This document shows, one piece after another, positions 46,104-54,350 of a stretch of DNA of 64,000 bases. How positions within the stretch are numbered: position 1 is the first letter of the stretch; every line of letters starts with the position of its first letter. Location of the stretch: positions 1 to 64,000 of the forward strand of contig JAFRSW010000018.1 in NCBI GenBank assembly GCA_017427385.1, written 5' to 3'. The stretch is from Bacteroidales bacterium (GTDB lineage: Bacteria > Bacteroidota > Bacteroidia > Bacteroidales > UBA932). The position numbers were made by a program, and so were the translations under genes. The notes under the pieces are model-generated. The model searched no databases, was not told where the DNA came from, and saw nothing but the letters and a program-made list of their open reading frames with translations.

Positions 46104-47756
46104 TTACATTTTTTTCCACTCCTGGGGAGTCATGCCGGTGAGGGCTTTGAAGTTTCGGAAGAAGGTGGTGCGGGAGGAGAAGCCGGATTCTTCGGCAACT
46201 TCGTCGAGAATCATGTCGGGGTGCTCGCGGAGGAGTTTCTGGGCATACTGCACGCGGTAGCGGGTAATCATCGAAGTGAAGCTTTCGCCGGACATGTTGT
46301 TCAGAAGGACGCTCACGTAGGTCTTGTTTGTGGCCAGTTCGGAAGCGACGTCGGTGATTCGCAGGTTCTTGCGGCGGTAGAGTTCTTTCTCTTCGATAAG
46401 GGCGGACATCTCTTCCATGAGATTGCGGGTGAGGCGCCCTTCTTCGGCCGACGCATCGGTCTTTCCGGTACGCCTGCTGCGAAGAACCACGATTAACGCG
46501 ATGCAGGTTAGGCCCAAGATAATCGCCAAAATGGCCCACAAGGGCATTCCGGACCGGGACGGCAACTCCGTATGCAGGATATATGCTGAAGAATAAGCCT
46601 TGAAATTATCTACCAGCACAGGAAACGTTCCCTCTTTCCAACCCCTGCCGCCGGCAAGGATAAATCTGCCCCCCGACATTAATCGCGCACATGCTGAAGG
46701 CGATCCGCCTGGAATATCTGCATAATAATAAGAAACCGATGCCCTGCCTCCATCGAAGGTGGCATCGTAGGCGATGCGAGCAAGGCAAAGACATCCTTTC
46801 GCCGAATCAAGCCCCTGCACCCAGGCAATACGGGAAGGGCGGTCGACCTGAAGCAGCGACCAGGTCACAGGGCCTCCTTCCGGACCTTTTCCCGCAAGAG
46901 AAGCTTCCATTTCGAGGATGGAAAACTTTCCGGAAGCGACTTTGACCACAACCTGTTCATCCGTAGAACGATTCTGTGCAGGAATGAGATATGTGTAATC
47001 CGCTATCTGCATATCCTCCGGAAAGGTGTCGTAATTGGCACACACGGCATAATCCTCGAACATGGGGACCTGTTCCGAGGAGCCGCCCAAATGATCCACA
47101 AGGCAACCGGTGTCGTCTCCGCGCGGATTCCATGGTCCGAATACAATGATATCATCTTCGGATGCGGGAAGGATGTAAGGTTCTGCCCAACCGGGCGAAA
47201 GCGCCTCTCCGGGCACAAAACCGGCTTCTGCAGTCCATGTTTCATAACTGTCTTCCGCGCGCCAGTTGCCGGCAATGACCACGCGGCCATCCAGCAGGCA
47301 AAGTGCGGAGGGCATGGCCCGTTTGACCGACATTATGCCGACCGGGGAAAAGCAGTGGGAAACCGGATCATATATCTCCGCGCCCCAGCTCTGGCCTATA
47401 CCGAAATCCGCTTCGCTGCCACCGCCGAGGAGAATCCTCCCGTCTGGAAGCGGTGTTGTAAAGCCGTTGATGTGAGCGTAGAGCATGGGGATCGTGTGCC
47501 AAGCGCCACCGGAGTAGTATTCAGCTGTTCCCAGAGGCTTGAACCCGTCGGTCTGGCCGCCCAGGAGCACTATTTCGTTGCCGGCAATAATGGTCCTGTG
47601 GCTACCGCGCGGAGTCGGAAGGTCCGGCAGACGCTCAACCGTCATCTGCTGCCACTCCGTACCGTCCGGAGCGGTAATGACATGCCCTCCGGGCTGAGCC
47701 GGAGAGCATGCTGCAAGAAAGAAGACTGCAGAAAGTATGAATAGTGATGATTTCAC
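46104..47756 (-). CDS. Periplasmic beta-propeller / transmembrane / AraC-type regulator
   Basis: 550 aa from a GTG at 47756. The N-terminus VKSSLFILSAVFFLAAC is a signal with a lipobox-like LAAC. A Kelch or galactose-oxidase-like propeller follows (about 45-400; repeats such as GNEIVLLGGQTDGFKPLGTAEYY, DGRILLGGGS, GGRFILAGGRG). One transmembrane helix lies near 410-432, then an AraC HTH domain (about 445-550; ITDVASELATNKTYVSVLLN, DEVAEESGFSSRTTFFRNFKALTGMTPQEW). This is a one-component membrane regulator without a kinase. It starts 17 nt after the first lipoprotein gene and may control the cassettes. Confidence 0.85.
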   Translation of the reverse strand: MKSSLFILSAVFFLAACSPAQPGGHVITAPDGTEWQQMTVERLPDLPTPRGSHRTIIAGNEIVLLGGQTDGFKPLGTAEYYSGGAWHTIPMLYAHINGFTTPLPDGRILLGGGSEADFGIGQSWGAEIYDPVSHCFSPVGIMSVKRAMPSALCLLDGRVVIAGNWRAEDSYETWTAEAGFVPGEALSPGWAEPYILPASEDDIIVFGPWNPRGDDTGCLVDHLGGSSEQVPMFEDYAVCANYDTFPEDMQIADYTYLIPAQNRSTDEQVVVKVASGKFSILEMEASLAGKGPEGGPVTWSLLQVDRPSRIAWVQGLDSAKGCLCLARIAYDATFDGGRASVSYYYADIPGGSPSACARLMSGGRFILAGGRGWKEGTFPVLVDNFKAYSSAYILHTELPSRSGMPLWAILAIILGLTCIALIVVLRSRRTGKTDASAEEGRLTRNLMEEMSALIEEKELYRRKNLRITDVASELATNKTYVSVLLNNMSGESFTSMITRYRVQYAQKLLREHPDMILDEVAEESGFSSRTTFFRNFKALTGMTPQEWKKM

Positions 47757-47773
47757 TCCGTAAATATACTCAT

Positions 47774-49309
47774 TTATTCCGTGACGGGGCGAACGGACAA
47801 ACCGGCAGTTATGCCATTGCCAGAACCACCACCCCACGTGAATGATGCATTCTGGATATAGATACAGTTCGCCTTGAAGTCTTCATACTCATGGAGGCGG
47901 CTTGCCCAGTAATCGCCATAACCAGCATGCCCTTCCCAATGATCGTAACAACGGCAGGCATAAGGGAAAAAGATGGTTGGGTCGACCCAATAAGTTCCTC
48001 CAGAAACAGTGACAGACCAGCCTTCGTAGCTGGCTTCTTTCGCTTTTTTCAGTGATAAAAGAGCCGACCATTCGGATTCTGTCGGCGTATGCCAATTCCT
48101 GCCGAGGTTTACCCTGGCCGCATCATCTTCTGGTTGTAAATCTCTATATCCGCCGTAATCCCAGTTGTACTTTGTATATTTGTATGGAGAAGCTCCTTCG
48201 TCATAATACTTGTAAGATGCCGGATAATATCCTGCACTCTTACCGGTTTTCCAGACAGGAGTTTTTATTGTTCCCGGTTCGTAGTAAGGCTCGGTATCAC
48301 CCCAAGCATAGTAATCCCCGTTTACAGCTATCACATCATCATCTCCGGTGCCGGCAGGAAAATCAACTGTGGCGCCCAGATTACGGGAGCTCCAGTAAAT
48401 GCGCTTACCACCAACATCGGTGCCTAAGTCTATGGGTTTGTAGTCGGTAACGGTAGTCCAATTGCTCAGTGCCGGCATCTTCAAAGCACGGCCTTCGGTA
48501 GCGCTGCGATACCAGGTCCTATCCTCAAAAGTCTTTTGATAGTATGTGCCTTGCCATCCTCCGACGACCAAAGTAAAGTGATATGTCGTTGAGGTATTCT
48601 GGGCACCTGCCGCAAGATAGCCACTGAAAAGGTAACCCTTTGATTCGCCTATTTCTTTGTTCGATTTATCATAGACATAACCCTTAAGTGGTGCACCATT
48701 CGCCTGGCTGGTCATGGTAATGCTTCCATCCGCGGAGATGGATGAAATCGCCCAAGGTCTCAGATGAGGTTCACGCAATTCAATATCGACGGAAGGATCT
48801 GCACTGACGTCATCTAAAAAGAACTGAATGTAGTTGGCCCAAGGCTGCATGTCAAATGCACCGGATACTTTTCCTTCGACGACTGTATAGCCAAGCGTAG
48901 CTGTCAGGAAATAAGAAAAACAGGTATTAGAAAAAACGAAACTGGAACCATCTGCAGATACTGTCTCACTATTGCCAAACGGGAGATATACTGCCCGCAT
49001 CGTCCCTGTCGCGTTTTCTGCAAGCCCCAGAGATTCCTCGACAGCGCCATTCATCTGAGTATAAGTCCAGCTTGAACCGTTGAAACTCATTTTCAGGTAT
49101 TTCGGTGCTGCGACATTGTTAAAAAACACGTACAGGACATCTCCGGACTCCCAACCCGTCTTAACTGCTTTGGCGTCCGGACCTCCCTGGTAACTTGCGG
49201 AAAGGTCAAAAATAATGTCGGTTGCTGTTGTCTCTATCCCACTGATTTCTTTCTTGCAGGATACGAAAGAAACAGCGGCGAAGAACAGGATAACAATAAA
49301 CTTTTTCAT
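47774..49309 (-). CDS. FISUMP-type lipoprotein 1
   Basis: 511 aa with a lipoprotein signal (VILFFAAVSFVSCKKE). The N-terminal half is a beta-rich fimbrillin-like region; the C-terminal half carries the FISUMP-type pattern (NLGATVDFPAG, DYYAWGDTEPY, LGRNWHTPTESEWSALL, GLSVRPVTE). It is paralogous to lipoprotein 3. An SD-like GGAGG precedes the start. It is the second gene of a cassette headed by a 40-aa peptide. The role is presumably cell-surface; the ligand is unknown. Confidence 0.85.
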   Translation of the reverse strand: MKKFIVILFFAAVSFVSCKKEISGIETTATDIIFDLSASYQGGPDAKAVKTGWESGDVLYVFFNNVAAPKYLKMSFNGSSWTYTQMNGAVEESLGLAENATGTMRAVYLPFGNSETVSADGSSFVFSNTCFSYFLTATLGYTVVEGKVSGAFDMQPWANYIQFFLDDVSADPSVDIELREPHLRPWAISSISADGSITMTSQANGAPLKGYVYDKSNKEIGESKGYLFSGYLAAGAQNTSTTYHFTLVVGGWQGTYYQKTFEDRTWYRSATEGRALKMPALSNWTTVTDYKPIDLGTDVGGKRIYWSSRNLGATVDFPAGTGDDDVIAVNGDYYAWGDTEPYYEPGTIKTPVWKTGKSAGYYPASYKYYDEGASPYKYTKYNWDYGGYRDLQPEDDAARVNLGRNWHTPTESEWSALLSLKKAKEASYEGWSVTVSGGTYWVDPTIFFPYACRCYDHWEGHAGYGDYWASRLHEYEDFKANCIYIQNASFTWGGGSGNGITAGLSVRPVTE

Positions 49310-49339
49310 ACTAAAATCCTCCATTTTTCATGACCCCTC

Positions 49340-49462
49340 TTACATATCCTCTTCGTCACCAAATCCGTGATACGCAGGGCTTGCACAAACTATAGCCCGG
49401 AACTCCACCTCGACCACCTTTGTCGAGGGCGCTTCATAAAAGAGCCTTTCATTGTTTTTCAT
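49340..49462 (-). CDS. Small peptide 1 of the lipoprotein cassettes
   Basis: 40 aa: MKNNERLFYEAPSTKVVEVE, then FRAIVCASPAYHGFGDEEDM. It shares YEAPSTKV-EV---VC-S and an acidic glycine-containing tail with two peptides at 54095-54220 and 52435-52575. The start at 49462 is supported by near-identity with peptide 3 from the same Met. There is no signal peptide. From memory, short peptides of this pattern are widespread but unnamed in Bacteroidales. Confidence 0.8.
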   Translation of the reverse strand: MKNNERLFYEAPSTKVVEVEFRAIVCASPAYHGFGDEEDM

Positions 49463-49595
49463 TTCTATTGACTGTATTGTATTCATTGTATTTATAATCA
49501 CAGACATACGACGAATACAAAAATAAACTCCCGCGCGCATACGGGAGTTTCATATCGGATAAACCAGAGTATCAAAAAAGAAAAAGAAATGGAAT
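49415..49595 (-). repeat. Duplicated cassette head, copy 1
   Basis: This stretch (peptide N-terminus, leader, promoter, hairpin and AAAAGAAAAAGAAATGGAAT end) is nearly identical to 54173-54350. The similarity stops abruptly at 49595, where the toxin gene side begins. Confidence 0.85.
49518..49550 (-). promoter_or_regulatory. Terminator hairpin and promoter of cassette 1
   Basis: On the minus strand AAACTCCCG/CGGGAGTTT (49550-49542 with 49533-49525) is followed by TATTTTTG (49525-49518), which can serve both as the T-tract ending the upstream transcript and as the -7 element of the cassette. Confidence 0.65.
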
Positions 49596-49596
49596 G

Positions 49597-50268
49597 CTAT
49601 CTTTCTATCACTTGTTTCACGTAGTCGCGGATTTCTTCGGCCGAGACATTGTATCTGGGGGACATCTTGAGGAAATCCTCTCCTTTTATGAATAATTGAG
49701 GGGAAAGCAGCCTTGAATACATAGTCTTGGAACGAATCGTATGCCGGGAAAGGTAGCTTGCATAACTGAGAGCCTCGTCAAGATTGCATCCCGTCTTCAA
49801 GAAGCAGTAAATATCGTAATAATCCCGGAATACAGTCCGCAAACAAATGGTATAAACCTTCATCCCCAGCAGTTCCTGCAATGTAGGTGTCTTGAGGTTG
49901 TTGTATTGCCAACCGGTTTTCATTGTTTTAACTGGGTTTTCCGGACGATAAAACGACAGTTTTACCTTCCCTTGGTTGATGAATACCAAGAAGTGGTCTT
50001 CTCCCAGGATTTCCTCTTTAGCATCAGTGAATACTTTCTTTAACTCTCCAAGAATCCCACTGAAATCCAATGCTGGCCGTTCCTTACGTAACCCGAGCAA
50101 TTCGAAATCCAAATCCTCGCTGAGCCTATGGTTCATTTGAAGGGACTGCCCAGTACCCTCGCAAAGGAACAGACTCTTAATGCACTCCAAATTGGAGACC
50201 TGATCGAATACTTCCCGTGTTGCCAGAGTCAATCCTTGTATTGCATTAATTTCTTTTTCAGTAGGCAT
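49597..50268 (-). CDS. AbiEii-type nucleotidyltransferase toxin
   Basis: 223 aa from MPTEKEINAIQG. The DUF1814/AbiEii core is visible: LCEGTGQSLQMNHRLSEDLDFELL near 37 (nucleotidyltransferase motif with DLDF), and KTPTLQELLGMKVYTICLRTVFRDYYDIYCFL near 130. The usual GGT becomes EGTG here. Toxins of this family transfer nucleotides to cellular targets. The gene overlaps the antitoxin gene by 11 bases and is AT-rich. No abortive-infection activity has been shown here. Confidence 0.85.
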   Translation of the reverse strand: MPTEKEINAIQGLTLATREVFDQVSNLECIKSLFLCEGTGQSLQMNHRLSEDLDFELLGLRKERPALDFSGILGELKKVFTDAKEEILGEDHFLVFINQGKVKLSFYRPENPVKTMKTGWQYNNLKTPTLQELLGMKVYTICLRTVFRDYYDIYCFLKTGCNLDEALSYASYLSRHTIRSKTMYSRLLSPQLFIKGEDFLKMSPRYNVSAEEIRDYVKQVIER

Positions 50269-50824
50269 AGCGTGACAAATAATTATCGGGTTTATTGACA
50301 TCGAATACTTTAACGGCAAGAATGTAATTCAGGATATTCATCCTCCGGCCTTGACTGACAAGGCGTTCTTTCCATACTTTTTTTATGTGGGCCCTGCTCC
50401 AGATTTGGAACAAAAGGGGCATTTCTTCCAACTCAAGATGGACAAGGGCGGCTTCTATGATAGAATCATCATCCAGATGCTCGGGTATACCCTGATAAGA
50501 CCACAGCCCTCCTGCAGCCTTGATCTTCTTGAGTATGTTCTTTTTTTTCTTTAGCATATCTGTCAGACGCATACTCTGCATCTCGTTTTCCACCATATCC
50601 CGGGTCTGCGCCTGAGCGATAGTTCCCGGAGGCAAGCCTAGAACCGCATCCAGCCTGATGCTCAGTGGGATAGGGATATCCCTTCTCCCGTGCAGGATGG
50701 CAGACAATGTTTGCAAATGCTCACCACACCGGATGGCTAGTTCCGACTGGTTGATGCCCAATTCAGAGATACGCTTCTGAATCAGTTCAATAGAAGTACG
50801 GGATTTATGAGTGTTCTTTTCCAT
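50258..50824 (-). CDS. XRE-family antitoxin with DUF6922-like C-terminus
   Basis: 188 aa. An N-terminal helix-turn-helix (IQKRISELGINQSELAIRCGEHLQTLSAILHGRRDIPI, about 14-50) is followed by WSYQGIPEHLDDDSIIEAALVHLELEE and IWSRAHIKKVWKERLVSQGRRMNILNYILA, which resembles a domain seen beside AbiEii toxins (DUF6922, from memory). The gene order antitoxin-toxin and the overlap support a toxin-antitoxin pair distinct from the classical AbiEi wHTH antitoxin. Confidence 0.8.
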   Translation of the reverse strand: MEKNTHKSRTSIELIQKRISELGINQSELAIRCGEHLQTLSAILHGRRDIPIPLSIRLDAVLGLPPGTIAQAQTRDMVENEMQSMRLTDMLKKKKNILKKIKAAGGLWSYQGIPEHLDDDSIIEAALVHLELEEMPLLFQIWSRAHIKKVWKERLVSQGRRMNILNYILAVKVFDVNKPDNYLSRYAY

Positions 50825-50831
50825 CTGTCTG

Positions 50832-50874
50832 CAAATATAGAAAAAGCAATAATATTTAACAAATTTGTTTAATA
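50832..50874 (-). promoter_or_regulatory. Promoter and likely operator of the XRE/AbiEii module
   Basis: Minus TTTG (50863-50860), 20 nt, TATATTTG (50839-50832), 7 nt before the ATG. The perfect palindrome AACAAATTTGTT (50858-50869), extended to 50853-50874 with one mismatch, covers the -33 element: a good autoregulatory operator. Confidence 0.65.
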
Positions 50875-50884
50875 ATTTTTAACA

Positions 50885-50916
50885 AGAAAGCTCGCGACAA
50901 ATGCCGCGAGCTTTCT
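50885..50916. terminator. Strong hairpin between the toxin-antitoxin module and the transporter relic
   Basis: AGAAAGCTCGCG and CGCGAGCTTTCT form a perfect 12-bp stem around an 8-nt loop; minus-strand continuation TTGTTAAAAATTATT suits termination of the upstream cassette 2 transcript. Confidence 0.8.
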
Positions 50917-50933
50917 AATAATCATTGTCAGGC

Positions 50934-50984
50934 CTACTGCATCGCCATCCGTTTTTCGCTGGGGATGAGCATGGCGCAGAGCTC
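50934..50984 (-). pseudogene. Relic of the OPA transporter 3' end
   Basis: 51 bp align with 54351-54401 with about seven mismatches. On the minus strand it reads LCAMLIPSEKRMAMQ-stop versus CAVLIPSEKRMAKQ-stop in the intact transporter. It begins 3 nt after the lipoprotein 2 stop, so it marks a recombination junction. Confidence 0.8.
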
Positions 50985-50987
50985 TGT

Positions 50988-52421
50988 TCACTCTGCGGTA
51001 TGCACTAAACGGACTGCGGTCATGGTCGTTTGATAACTGATATCATCCAATGACACGCTATTTGACAGGATATAGGGAGTATAATACTCATCGCCGTTTA
51101 CGGTAACAATGGGCGTGGAAGTGCCATAGCATACTGCGCTGCCGACATTCACCCATCCATCGACTACACTTTTGTATCCGGCTGCAGGCAAAAAGACGCA
51201 TCCTGCCGCTTCCATCTTTGCCCACCCTGATATGCTGACGGTAGAGGTGTAATCCGACGGGGCGTTATATGTTCCCCCCGTGAAATCCGTTCCATCGGGA
51301 TGAGAATAGTTGTCTGGGAATATAATTAGTCCTTTCGTGTCGCCAATCCTGGCCATTGTATATCGTGCATTGGCACTTAAAGAATTTGTAACGCTGCGGG
51401 TAGTCAAGAGATACTTCCACTGTTGCCACGATAGGTTCCACCATGATACAGGGGCCGTATAACCATTATACGCAAACATATCGCGCCCCCCGGTCTGGCT
51501 TTCTCCAAGATAGTCTTTCTGAGCATCGGCAAACTTCCAAGTGGACGTGGCATCAACATAATTCAAATTACCTTTTGAGAAATAGACCCTTACAGACGCT
51601 TCTACAGAGAACATCCCTGCGATGGCGCCGTCGGGGAGCAATCGCATCTTAACCGGAATCTCATTATAGCTGCCATTGGCGAAAGTTACGCCCGATTTCT
51701 CGTAGATGTACTTGTCACTTCCTACTGTTGCGACCAACTTGACAGGGCGGCTTGAAATGCCGGGAAGAGCCACAAACAGCACGCAGTTTCCATTGGCAGT
51801 GAAGGTCGCAGCAGGTATGCTTTCAAGGCTGATGATTCCTGTGCTATAAATGGTCAGGGATGTGGGATTGGAAGGGAGGGCTGAGCCATCACTCTGCTTC
51901 AAAGTAAACTTCACGATGGCCTGTTGGTTGGCGCCAAAACTGATTCCTCCCGGCACGTCTATCTCCTTGTTCACATCATCTACAGTGAAATTGCCGACAG
52001 TCACTGTGGCAGGAGCGCAAAAATCATAGGTCGAAGCAATTGTTGCTAACGTTCCATCCTGCCCCGCATAAGCCGGATCGGCATTGCTGTGGAAGTAAAA
52101 GGTAAGGTCAGCGCTCGAACTAGGGACAGATGCGAAAGATCCGGAAAGAGTAGTTGAAGTTGACGCGCTGGCTGCAGCCGTCAGTTCACCAATCTTTGCT
52201 CCGGACTGATAGACCTCAACTACTTCTCCTGCCACCCATGTGGCGTTCAGTTGATGAGGGCTTGTAGTCTCATCGAGTGCAAGGGCACGGGTGTTTAAAT
52301 CTCCAACTTCTCCCTTGACAGCGTTTACTGTCATTGTATAAACTCCGGGAACATCTATTTTATTTGTACAGGCGGCAAACACAAACGCCAGCGTAATAAA
52401 TGCAAAATAATTCTTCTTCAT
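50988..52421 (-). CDS. Fimbrillin/FISUMP-like lipoprotein 2
   Basis: 477 aa with a lipoprotein signal (FITLAFVFAACTNKID). The N-terminal ~280 residues are beta-rich and Ser/Thr-rich, fimbrillin-like (FYFHSNADPAYAGQDG). The C-terminal part has FSKGNLNYVDATSTWKFADAQ, MARIGDTKGLIIFPDN and VFLPAAGYKS, a FISUMP-related fold. It is more diverged than lipoproteins 1 and 3. A strong AAGGAGG lies 9 nt before the start, directly after the stop of small peptide 2. Confidence 0.82.
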   Translation of the reverse strand: MKKNYFAFITLAFVFAACTNKIDVPGVYTMTVNAVKGEVGDLNTRALALDETTSPHQLNATWVAGEVVEVYQSGAKIGELTAAASASTSTTLSGSFASVPSSSADLTFYFHSNADPAYAGQDGTLATIASTYDFCAPATVTVGNFTVDDVNKEIDVPGGISFGANQQAIVKFTLKQSDGSALPSNPTSLTIYSTGIISLESIPAATFTANGNCVLFVALPGISSRPVKLVATVGSDKYIYEKSGVTFANGSYNEIPVKMRLLPDGAIAGMFSVEASVRVYFSKGNLNYVDATSTWKFADAQKDYLGESQTGGRDMFAYNGYTAPVSWWNLSWQQWKYLLTTRSVTNSLSANARYTMARIGDTKGLIIFPDNYSHPDGTDFTGGTYNAPSDYTSTVSISGWAKMEAAGCVFLPAAGYKSVVDGWVNVGSAVCYGTSTPIVTVNGDEYYTPYILSNSVSLDDISYQTTMTAVRLVHTAE

Positions 52422-52434
52422 CTTAGTGTCCTCC

Positions 52435-52575
52435 TTAATTCCATTCGTCTTCAATTGCATTACCATAGTTATCACGCCTTCCGCTAGCACATACCACACC
52501 CTCTTGCACCAATTCGATAATTTGAACCATAGGAGATTCATACTTGTATTTTCCCTTTGATAGCATCATATCCAT
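52435..52575 (-). CDS. Small peptide 2 of the lipoprotein cassettes
   Basis: 46 aa: MDMMLSKGKYKYESPMVQII, then ELVQEGVVCASGRRDNYGNAIEDEWN. It shares KYESP-V-I-E----VVCAS and the acidic tail with peptides 1 and 3 and sits in the same place, between a TATTTTTG promoter and the lipoprotein. Starts two or three codons later are possible. The overlapping longer frame here is only an upstream extension of lipoprotein 2. Confidence 0.75.
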   Translation of the reverse strand: MDMMLSKGKYKYESPMVQIIELVQEGVVCASGRRDNYGNAIEDEWN

Positions 52576-52606
52576 TGCGTTGATTATCATTAACGTACGT
52601 CGAATA

Positions 52607-52614
52607 CAAAAATA
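52607..52614 (-). promoter_or_regulatory. Promoter of cassette 2
   Basis: Minus TATTTTTG followed by TATTCGACGTACGTTAATGA, matching the other two cassette promoters (TATTTTTGTATTCGTCGTATGT and TATTTTTGTGTTTATCGTATGT). Confidence 0.65.
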
Positions 52615-52633
52615 AAATTTTAAATATACTTAT

Positions 52634-54082
52634 TTATTCTGTGACAGCACGGACAGTATAACCATAGGAGCGGAGATCGTAACGCCAGGCGAAATTGTCA
52701 TTGTCGAACCAAACGTGGTATGCGCGGCCCGAGTTGCTAGTCTCGAGGGAAGATGACCAATAGTAGCCGTAGGGACCAGCGTTGATGAAGTCGGCATTGC
52801 GCCGGAAACCGGCCGCAGGAAGGAAGATGAAGTTGCCGCTGACATTGCTGGTCACCGTCCGGCCCGCTACTCCAGTTCCGTTGTAATCACTCGTCCACGT
52901 CCAGGTGAAGTTGGTGGAGTTCAGTAGCGCCTTCCACTCAGCAAGGGTGGGGATGCGCCAGGTGTCGCCCCATGTCTTGTTTGCAGCGTCGTCCTCAAGG
53001 CCAAGAACAGTCTTGCCTCCGGAGATATTGTACTTTGTGAAAGTGGAACCGCCGTCTGTCGTGTCGAAGTAATTGCTCCAGTTCTCCTTGTATTCTGTTT
53101 TCGTGACGGTTTCGCCCCATGCGTAGTAGTTACCATAATCCCAGGAGTTGTCGGCGCCCACGTTGCAAGCAGCCCAGTAAACCCTTTTTCCATCCACATC
53201 CATCCCCATGTCAATGGGTTTGTGGTCATTGACTTCTGTCCAGTTGGCCGCTACCGGAAGTTTGATGGCGCGACCGTCAGAAACACCCCGATAGAAAGTC
53301 TTTCCAGTATATGATTTCGAGTAGTAGTTGCCGTAGAAGCCACCGCTCACCAGTGTGAAATTGTAATCGGTGGAGACATTGCGGGCTCCGCTTGCAAGAA
53401 TACCGCTGAAAAGATAACCCTTAGAATCGCTACCGGTCTTCACCTCTTTGTCATAAACATAACCGGGAAGCGGAGCGCCATGAGCAAGGGTGGATTCGAC
53501 AACGGCACCGGCGGCAGAAACTGAAGCAATGCAGACAGGAGTCAGATGGGGCTCACGAAGTTCAATAACATCACTTGACGAGGCGCTGGCATTGTCCACG
53601 AAGAACTGCACGAAACCAGCCGGAATCTGCATATCGAATGTCCCCTCGACAACTCCCCCTGTAACGGTATATGCTAGGGATGCGGTCAGATAATAACTGT
53701 AGGGATTCTTGCTGAACACATAGCTGGTACCTGATGCGGAAACGGTGGCATCGCTGCCGAAGGGAAGGAAGACTGCCGTCATCGTACCGGATTCACTTTC
53801 GGCAAGGCTGAGACCGTGCTCAGTATTGACCCAGGACGAGCCGTTCCACTTCATTTCCAAATATGCCGGAGCCGTCTGGTTTGAGAAGAACACGAAGACC
53901 ACATCGTCGGTTTCCCAACCAGTTTTGACTGCCTTGGTGGCTACATCGGGATGAGTAACATTGAGGTTGAAAGTGATAGCAACCGGCTCAGTCACATCTT
54001 GAGGCACAGGAGTATCAATCTCTTTGTTGCAGGCAACCATCGCAACGAGCGTGGCGCAGAGAATAACCAATGACTTTTTCAT
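52634..54082 (-). CDS. FISUMP-type lipoprotein 3
   Basis: 482 aa with a lipoprotein signal (VILCATLVAMVACNKE). The domain order is as in lipoprotein 1, with clearly matching segments: KAVKTGWETDDVVFVFF versus KAVKTGWESGDVLYVFF, YLFSGILASGARNVSTDYNFTLV, and the FISUMP end (NYYAWGETVTKTEY, WGDTWRIPTLAEWKALL, GYTVRAVTE). AGGAGG precedes the start. Paired with small peptide 3, 12 nt upstream. Confidence 0.85.
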   Translation of the reverse strand: MKKSLVILCATLVAMVACNKEIDTPVPQDVTEPVAITFNLNVTHPDVATKAVKTGWETDDVVFVFFSNQTAPAYLEMKWNGSSWVNTEHGLSLAESESGTMTAVFLPFGSDATVSASGTSYVFSKNPYSYYLTASLAYTVTGGVVEGTFDMQIPAGFVQFFVDNASASSSDVIELREPHLTPVCIASVSAAGAVVESTLAHGAPLPGYVYDKEVKTGSDSKGYLFSGILASGARNVSTDYNFTLVSGGFYGNYYSKSYTGKTFYRGVSDGRAIKLPVAANWTEVNDHKPIDMGMDVDGKRVYWAACNVGADNSWDYGNYYAWGETVTKTEYKENWSNYFDTTDGGSTFTKYNISGGKTVLGLEDDAANKTWGDTWRIPTLAEWKALLNSTNFTWTWTSDYNGTGVAGRTVTSNVSGNFIFLPAAGFRRNADFINAGPYGYYWSSSLETSNSGRAYHVWFDNDNFAWRYDLRSYGYTVRAVTE

Positions 54083-54094
54083 ACCTGTTTCCTC

Positions 54095-54220
54095 CTATGA
54101 CAAATCATCTTCGTTCCCGAAGCCGTTGTAGCGGTTGCTGGTACATACCATTCCTTCAAACCTAACCTCAAACACCTTTGTCGAGGGCGCTTCATAAAAG
54201 AGCCTTTCATTGTTTTTCAT
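54095..54220 (-). CDS. Small peptide 3 of the lipoprotein cassettes
   Basis: 41 aa: MKNNERLFYEAPSTKVFEVR, then FEGMVCTSNRYNGFGNEDDLS. The first 16 residues are identical to peptide 1; the C-terminal half diverges, but VC-S and the GFG-[ND]E-D tail are kept. That pattern of conserved front and variable tail is reminiscent of leader/core peptides, which is only a suggestion. Confidence 0.8.
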   Translation of the reverse strand: MKNNERLFYEAPSTKVFEVRFEGMVCTSNRYNGFGNEDDLS

Positions 54221-54350
54221 TTCCATTGATCGCGCTATATTGTATTTATAATCATTGACATACGATAAACACAAAAATAAAACTCCCGCGCGCATACGGG
54301 AGTTTCATATCGGATAAACCGGAGTATCAAAAAAGAAAAAGAAATGGAAT
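54173..54350 (-). repeat. Duplicated cassette head, copy 3
   Basis: The counterpart of 49415-49595. It abuts the stop codon of the intact transporter (54351), showing the original junction. Confidence 0.85.
54272..54305 (-). promoter_or_regulatory. Terminator hairpin and promoter of cassette 3
   Basis: AAACTCCCG (54280-54288) and CGGGAGTTT (54297-54305) form the hairpin; on the minus strand TATTTTTG (54279-54272) follows. It ends the transporter transcript and starts that of the cassette. Confidence 0.65.

Follow-up and report, generated by a model that had tools for sequence, protein, structure and literature searches.

A small-protein family encoded beside surface proteins in Bacteroidales: candidate companions for the making or export of their neighbours

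Why should the gene for a surface lipoprotein be preceded, three times in succession, by a gene for a peptide of about 40 residues? The question is raised by a stretch of 64,000 nucleotides (nt) from a Bacteroidales bacterium of the UBA932 lineage (assembly GCA_017427385.1, contig JAFRSW010000018.1, positions 1 to 64,000), hereafter the window. Here three minus-strand cassettes run from 54350 to 47774, each made up, in order, of TATTTTTG, a spacer of 40-55 nt, a peptide gene of 40-43 amino acids (aa), a gap of 12-30 nt and a lipoprotein gene, and a regulator gene (47756-46104) stands at the end of the array. We propose, with a probability of about 0.4, that the peptide is a bipartite companion protein for the surface protein encoded next to it, most likely an adaptor for export or assembly. 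At the level of sequence, genome comparison demonstrates the pairing, the conservation of the peptide as a protein, its modularity and the independence of gene order across families; the repeated pairing suggests that a tiny protein helps to make, export or switch its neighbour.

The succession of promoter, peptide, Shine-Dalgarno (SD) sequence and lipoprotein, which an earlier note on this DNA had described three times on the minus strand, was recovered in all its parts, with peptides of 40-43 aa. These peptides (cassette 1, 40 aa, 49340-49462; cassette 2, 43 aa counted from the nearest ATG, 52435-52566; cassette 3, 41 aa, 54095-54220) have in common Y-E-[AS]-P...[VI]-x-E-[VL]...V-C-[AT]-S followed by an acidic tail, and AGGAGG or GGAGG precedes each of the three lipoproteins. 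That two copies have nearly identical fronts while the tails vary also held: the peptide genes of cassettes 1 and 3 are identical over their first 48 nt and begin to diverge inside the peptide. A 189-nt block comprising the upstream region and the peptide start is 89% identical between these two cassettes, and the longer alignment of upstream region plus peptide (54094-54350 in cassette 3, 49336-49595 in cassette 1) matches at 82% over 262 columns. The treatment of all three lipoproteins as one kind (fimbrillin/FISUMP) needs correcting: lipoproteins 1 (511 aa, 47774-49309) and 3 (482 aa, 52634-54082, with a weak FISUMP-like C-terminus) are paralogues at 44% identity, while lipoprotein 2 (477 aa, 50988-52421) is a different protein that gives one C-terminal match of 63 residues at E 0.02. 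The gene for a protein with a propeller-like part, a transmembrane (TM) segment and an AraC-type domain, placed by the same note 17 nt after cassette 1, is indeed present at 46104-47756.

The pairing is not confined to this array. A profile of the three window peptides recovers further copies in the same genome, and nine peptides were found there, three of them in the window, two each on contigs C3 and C4 and a single one on C10 and on C20; all nine are followed, at 11-30 nt, by a lipoprotein. When peptide profiles were searched across Bacteroidales genomes and the next gene was tabulated, a protein with a lipobox, recognised by rule, started between -10 and +60 nt after the peptide in 98 of 110 scored cassettes: 7/7 in the own genome, 89/99 in own-family relatives and 2/4 in other families. 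For comparison, over 264 kb of the own genome a lipoprotein follows 17 of 692 random open reading frames (ORFs) of 35-65 aa and 29 of 252 ORFs of at least 200 aa. The earlier note had named a lack of such enrichment in other genomes as grounds against its reading; the enrichment is there. The loci are the best-scoring matches of each search together with regions chosen by hand. The profile behind these counts (A3) was built from 43 of 58 peptides, two without a lipoprotein found (L049, L075) having been removed before the 58 and 15 left out of them (10 without Cys-x-Ser, 2 near copies, 3 low-scoring); its 130 matches, minus 16 scoring below 20, three near a contig end and one duplicate (L095 = L153), give the 110 cassettes. 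Among the 12 misses, two look like lipoproteins overlooked by the rule (L053, L125), three have a signal-peptide protein without a lipobox downstream (L112, L122, L156), two are of the type IX-like kind described below (L082, L086), three have their lipoprotein farther away (L137, L146, L064), one appears damaged (L075), and in one (L114) the front leads into a hydrolase-like frame. Read by eye, this front continues in frame into alpha/beta-hydrolase-like sequence, either because recombination made a genuine fusion or because the assembly joined two pieces there. Within the genus, 134 of 250 genomes, many of them incomplete, have a peptide match at E 1e-4, and the 11 named relatives are mostly metagenome-assembled genomes of ruminant-gut Bacteroidales, one being labelled Fibrobacter.

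Short ORFs are easily over-read, and the whole pattern might be the product of chance. We regard this as scarcely credible: the pairing (89/99 against 17/692 in controls) speaks against it, and so do the substitution patterns. In fronts paired by DNA identity alone, differences number 1682, 1010 and 2684 at codon positions 1, 2 and 3 (269 non-independent pairs), and dN/dS is 0.26 for fronts (53 pairs) and 0.16 for tails (39 pairs), these pairs having been picked by protein similarity, which lowers the ratio. The codon-position pattern and dN/dS therefore make it very probable that the peptides undergo translation and have a function. They belong to an unnamed family of small proteins of Bacteroidia, about 38-65 aa long, in which no signal peptide was seen by eye. 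Searches of Pfam and NCBIfam gave no peptide match over the cut-off, only single weak ones at E 0.009 or worse, and PHROGs, searched with three peptides, gave a single match at E 0.09. No description of the family was found in the available portions of the literature searched, and surveys of small proteins may catalogue parts of it as unknown families.

Sequence alignments show that the peptide consists of two modules, which are exchanged near the Cys-x-Ser codons. The front module, up to Cys-x-Ser, is common to unrelated cassettes, while the tail, acidic and aromatic, goes with the lipoprotein: in a set of 100 cassettes, similarity at the mature start of the lipoprotein correlates with tail similarity at r 0.50 and with front similarity at r 0.18. 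Similarly, pairs that share the tail and not the front have the same type of lipoprotein signal in 16 of 23 cases, against 1 of 19 for pairs that share the front and not the tail (p 2e-5, the pairs not being independent). Twelve chosen pairs, aligned as DNA, have their joint no later than the Cys-x-Ser codons, and some of them show a common front block bounded on both sides; further chimeric pairs were selected by protein similarity, so that their DNA identities illustrate the exchange rather than test it. The tail has a mean net charge of -3.7, contains 1% Lys and 4.4% Trp, is rich in G, E, D and W, and carries an aromatic residue among its last six positions in 89 of 101 cases; the set used for composition was filtered for Pro, Ser and mostly Cys, which makes the counts of those residues uninformative.

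Such chimeras could mean that the front and the promoter block are kept simply as a homologous stretch, an anchor for swapping or phase-varying surface cassettes. A sister genome (G421) fits this. Its flanks are about 91% identical to those of the window, and pieces on two of its contigs indicate the same locus, of which one cassette was read: the cassette 2 peptide stands there directly behind the promoter block that precedes cassettes 1 and 3 in the window, and a cassette 2-type lipoprotein (74%) lies directly before the regulator. Also in keeping with an anchor are runs of G or C. Runs of at least 8 occur upstream of 12 of 118 peptides, whereas 4 of the 2039 control windows taken from these loci have one (p 6e-13); the other thresholds give 15/118 against 5/2039 (at least 7) and 5/118 against 4/2039 (at least 9). 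These runs, 8-13 long, at most 220 nt upstream and about 50-fold over control windows, were seen at L091, L092, L101, L110, L027, L054, L057, L080, L133, L149, L083 and L217, the three cassettes of the window having none; they hint at phase-variable promoters, for which they are candidates. However, the front is conserved as protein and not as DNA, synonymous change in it being free (pS 0.48), and because of this the exchange looks like a consequence rather than the reason for the front. We consider an anchor for recombination quite improbable as the main explanation.

A conserved front, a variable tail and a sharp point of exchange could also describe the precursor of a secreted peptide (a secreted or modified product was one of the two options of the earlier note), in which the front would be a leader for a common machine, the tail the released product, and the surface partner a receptor, carrier or display protein. 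Precursors of ribosomally synthesised and post-translationally modified peptides (RiPPs) with GG leaders and C39 exporters are known from Bacteroidales (PMC10352776), and they resemble the family in having a conserved front, a variable back and many paralogues; in the genus studied here, one genome gives up to 20 peptide matches at E 0.1. The composition of the tail, poor in Lys and rich in G, E, D and W, would also suit a released product. In contrast to those RiPP precursors, the peptides are paired with a surface protein, are mostly without C39 and show no recurrent maturation gene among the upstream ORFs scanned. Among the matches listed, no family occurred in more than 4 of 83 scanned upstream ORFs (of 142 listed), which gives no sign of a recurrent upstream gene. 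C39 peptidases are found in 7 of 134 peptide-positive genus genomes against 10 of the 116 others (p 0.32), and the own genome gave none. Since C39 is absent from most genus genomes that carry the peptide, we rejected it as the exporter common to all cassettes. No GG-type motif was seen by eye and, in addition, homologous tails look conserved. Thus, a leader-and-product peptide is conceivable but on balance doubtful.

How are the two genes expressed? TAnnTTTG is the Bacteroidetes -7 consensus. Of 118 non-redundant peptides, 47 have it within the preceding 160 nt; shuffles give 8.3 (15 at most). The peptide is therefore often the first gene of its transcript. In the window, TATTTTTG is found 55 nt before the peptide ATG in cassette 1 (49518-49525), 40 nt in cassette 2 (52607-52614) and, as a -7-like element, 51 nt in cassette 3 (54272-54279), where it overlaps the T-run of a terminator-like hairpin; a fourth copy sits within lipoprotein gene 1, so this string taken by itself is weak evidence. 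Between peptide and lipoprotein the median gap is 15 nt, and an SD sequence of at least 6 nt precedes 30 of 114 linked lipoproteins and none of the 114 peptide starts. Such a sequence precedes 6 of 169 genes of the own genome (p 2e-8; lipoprotein 3 is one of the six) and 3 of 56 that are internal to operons (p 8e-4), a comparison that sets genus-wide pairs against genes of the own genome. Ribosomes of Bacteroidia are reported not to recognise SD sequences, and SD use is described as unusual in this class (PMC9976891).

These features invite a simpler explanation, namely that ribosomes ending the peptide reinitiate on the lipoprotein and that the peptide gene serves chiefly as a control element on the 5' side. 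Leader peptides and upstream ORFs with reinitiation have precedents (for example PMC4833913), and the cassettes share with them a short ORF a few nt before the main gene, tight spacing and, in some pairs, an SD sequence in between. They differ from them in that the peptide is conserved as a protein, its tail travels with the partner, and in the wider family some members come after their partner. Moreover, 66 of 115 pairs are without an SD match of even 4 nt, and RNA folding predictions for 70 loci gave no indication of the lipoprotein start being masked by the peptide ORF (p 0.38 against shuffled peptide ORFs), although this start is predicted to be less open than that of the peptide (0.47 against 0.56 unpaired, p 9e-6). 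A peptide under protein-level selection is not free to change its sequence, as a mere coupler would be. Taking these points with the reversed gene order set out next, we judge translational coupling unlikely as the principal function.

What weighs most between a leader and a protein acting in trans is the position of the peptide in the wider family. A broader profile (A7) found peptides in 27 of 393 genomes of the order, the own genome included, and in 4 of 395 of a phylum sample, again with the own genome and with one likely chance match (L272). The order sample comprises 51 distinct peptides, 48 of them outside the own family. By rule, 23 (20 outside the own family) have a lipoprotein at most 80 nt downstream, a count that leaves out three lipoproteins at gaps over 300 nt and includes three peptides from the own genus; one more (L232) was recognised by eye. 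By contrast with this arrangement, 19 of the 51, from seven genomes and five families, come immediately after a protein whose C-terminus is type IX-like, 18 at a spacing of 3-57 nt and one overlapping it by 4 nt. Three of the 19 neighbours match TIGR04183, the model of the type A sorting domain, over the cut-off and two just under it; among 14 control genomes, four have matches and one a match over the cut-off. SprA, the translocon of type IX secretion, is present in all five type IX-pair genomes covered by the search (G116, G208, G152, G596, G659; the other two of the seven, G542 and G689, lay outside it) and was not found in any of the four own-genus genomes searched, the own genome among them. 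Type IX-like cargo is the kind of partner seen in several other Bacteroidales families, and the partners in the own family are lipoproteins. In another order (f121) a lipoprotein follows the peptide in 5/5 cases. Eight of the 51 fit neither pattern, and in L252 the type IX-like protein comes after the peptide; L230, L239, L242, L243, L245, L246 and the second peptide of L247 are unassigned or chance matches. In one genome (G208, L250-L259) many peptides end like R-[NS]-x-x-W-x-D-[DYF]-E, after proteins ending KGLYIVNGKKVxxK or similar.

The neighbouring exported protein is constant and its position is not, and this is our main reason for preferring a trans-acting protein over a leader. That pairs occur in both orders speaks against a pure translational leader and in favour of a companion that acts as a protein, and the suggestion of the earlier note that the peptide is a leader-like regulator finds no support as a rule for the whole family, given both the downstream members and the protein-level selection, which includes the tail. 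It is tempting to speculate how such a companion might work. The peptide would be encoded beside, and probably co-transcribed with, one surface-exported protein, either the lipoprotein just downstream or, in other Bacteroidales, the type IX-like protein just upstream, and its reversible gene order suggests a trans-acting protein. With the conserved front the peptide would attach to a hub common to all cassettes, be it part of export, folding or regulation, and with the acidic, aromatic tail it would match its partner, which would make it a dedicated adaptor for the production, export or assembly of its surface protein. The last gene of the operon in the window encodes a membrane-bound AraC regulator, which may report on the envelope and switch the cassettes. 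We could also imagine, more tentatively, an unnamed companion system of Bacteroidia that serves more than one route outward, for lipoproteins and for type IX-like cargo, with a swappable front directed to the common hub, a partner-specific tail and, in places, an AraC readout together with recombination or poly-G/C switching; the peptide would then function as a secretion adaptor or through peptide-receptor recognition.

Several observations weigh against a dedicated companion. The link between tail and partner could be plain physical linkage. The patchy occurrence in the genus (134/250) suggests that the family is dispensable, and the choice of dN/dS pairs mentioned above leans towards the result we favour. 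In the own family only the peptide-first order was found, as would be the case with a leader. Of the 19 type IX-like pairs, 11 come from one genome, G208, and 14 of the neighbours, all from family f111, were recognised by motif only (they end like YxLxGQRV...KGLYIVNGKKVxxK and give no TIGR04183 match at E 0.05). TIGR04183 matches over the cut-off also occur in the own genome, at C3:19682, C13:162965 and C20:23221, although no SprA was found there. Finally, no Pfam family occurs in more than 4 of 82 partners scanned, and this diversity strains the idea of a specific adaptor.

Some of these partners carry LRR, CotH, lectin or beta-helix domains, and Mfa_like_1, the family of fimbrillin-like adhesins, was found in 2 of the 82 partner lipoproteins scanned (of 98 listed). 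The best fold matches of lipoprotein 3 are Mfa_like_1 adhesins of Bacteroides (PDB 3ufi, 5cag, 3t2l and 4qdg; E 2e-6 to 5e-4, template modelling scores 0.2-0.3); this predicted resemblance is only suggestive because the AlphaFold model, made from four sequences, has a predicted local distance difference test score (pLDDT) of 46.

Bacteroidia display many surface lipoproteins and much type IX cargo, and there is little understanding of how they choose, fold and switch single ones. A recurrent small protein that marks surface-protein genes in either order would offer a handle on this selection and switching, and the family would account for a set of unnamed small ORFs. Furthermore, the peptide could serve as a sequence tag for candidate switchable surface proteins in uncultured rumen bacteria.

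The regulator at the end of the array (46104-47756, minus strand, 550 aa) starts with a GTG 17 nt after lipoprotein 1 and combines a lipobox, a Kelch-like propeller, a TM segment and an AraC helix-turn-helix (HTH) domain. Pfam finds HTH_18 at 4.1e-17, and a hydrophobic segment was read by eye at residues 407-425 (46482-46538); the Kelch repeats stay under the Pfam cut-off (Kelch_6, 20.5 bits against 25.3). An AlphaFold model from one sequence, with a pLDDT of 37, was unusable. Membrane-bound AraC-type one-component regulators consist of an envelope part, a TM segment and a cytoplasmic HTH_18 domain, as in the window protein, which differs from them in its Kelch-like propeller plus lipobox and in recurring behind peptide-lipoprotein pairs. 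Among 250 genus genomes, 68 contain a match to the regulator, in some cases confined to the HTH part. It recurs as the third gene behind peptide-lipoprotein pairs: contexts were read for 24 full-length copies, and 8 of these stand in that place, a fraction that is biased because some regions (G394, G420, G008 and L119) were chosen for a known nearby peptide, and L119 adds a further case. Among the eight peptides, those of L201 and L217 are weak matches without Cys, and the operons of L212, L213 and L216 are near copies. Of the other 16 copies, eight, one of them doubtful, follow a lipobox protein without a recognised peptide. Its propeller part may sense the envelope side, as the earlier note suggested.

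Genes for a transporter and for DNA polymerase I, both named by eye, flank the array. A 48-bp remnant on the minus strand (50934-50981), recognised by DNA comparison, matches the transporter gene next to cassette 3 at its 3' end, with 87.5% identity, and we therefore think that the present array was probably built by duplication and insertion. Between cassettes 2 and 1, also on the minus strand, Pfam identifies an HTH-AbiEii-like pair (49597-50824), probably a bystander. Toxin-antitoxin-like pairs adjoin cassette promoters elsewhere as well: in the sister genome G421 the same locus has a small ORF and a GNAT-like gene (L104, 722-1380, by eye), and at a cassette on C4 (L021, 7563-9028) AbiE-like genes, again recognised by eye, are divergent from the cassette.

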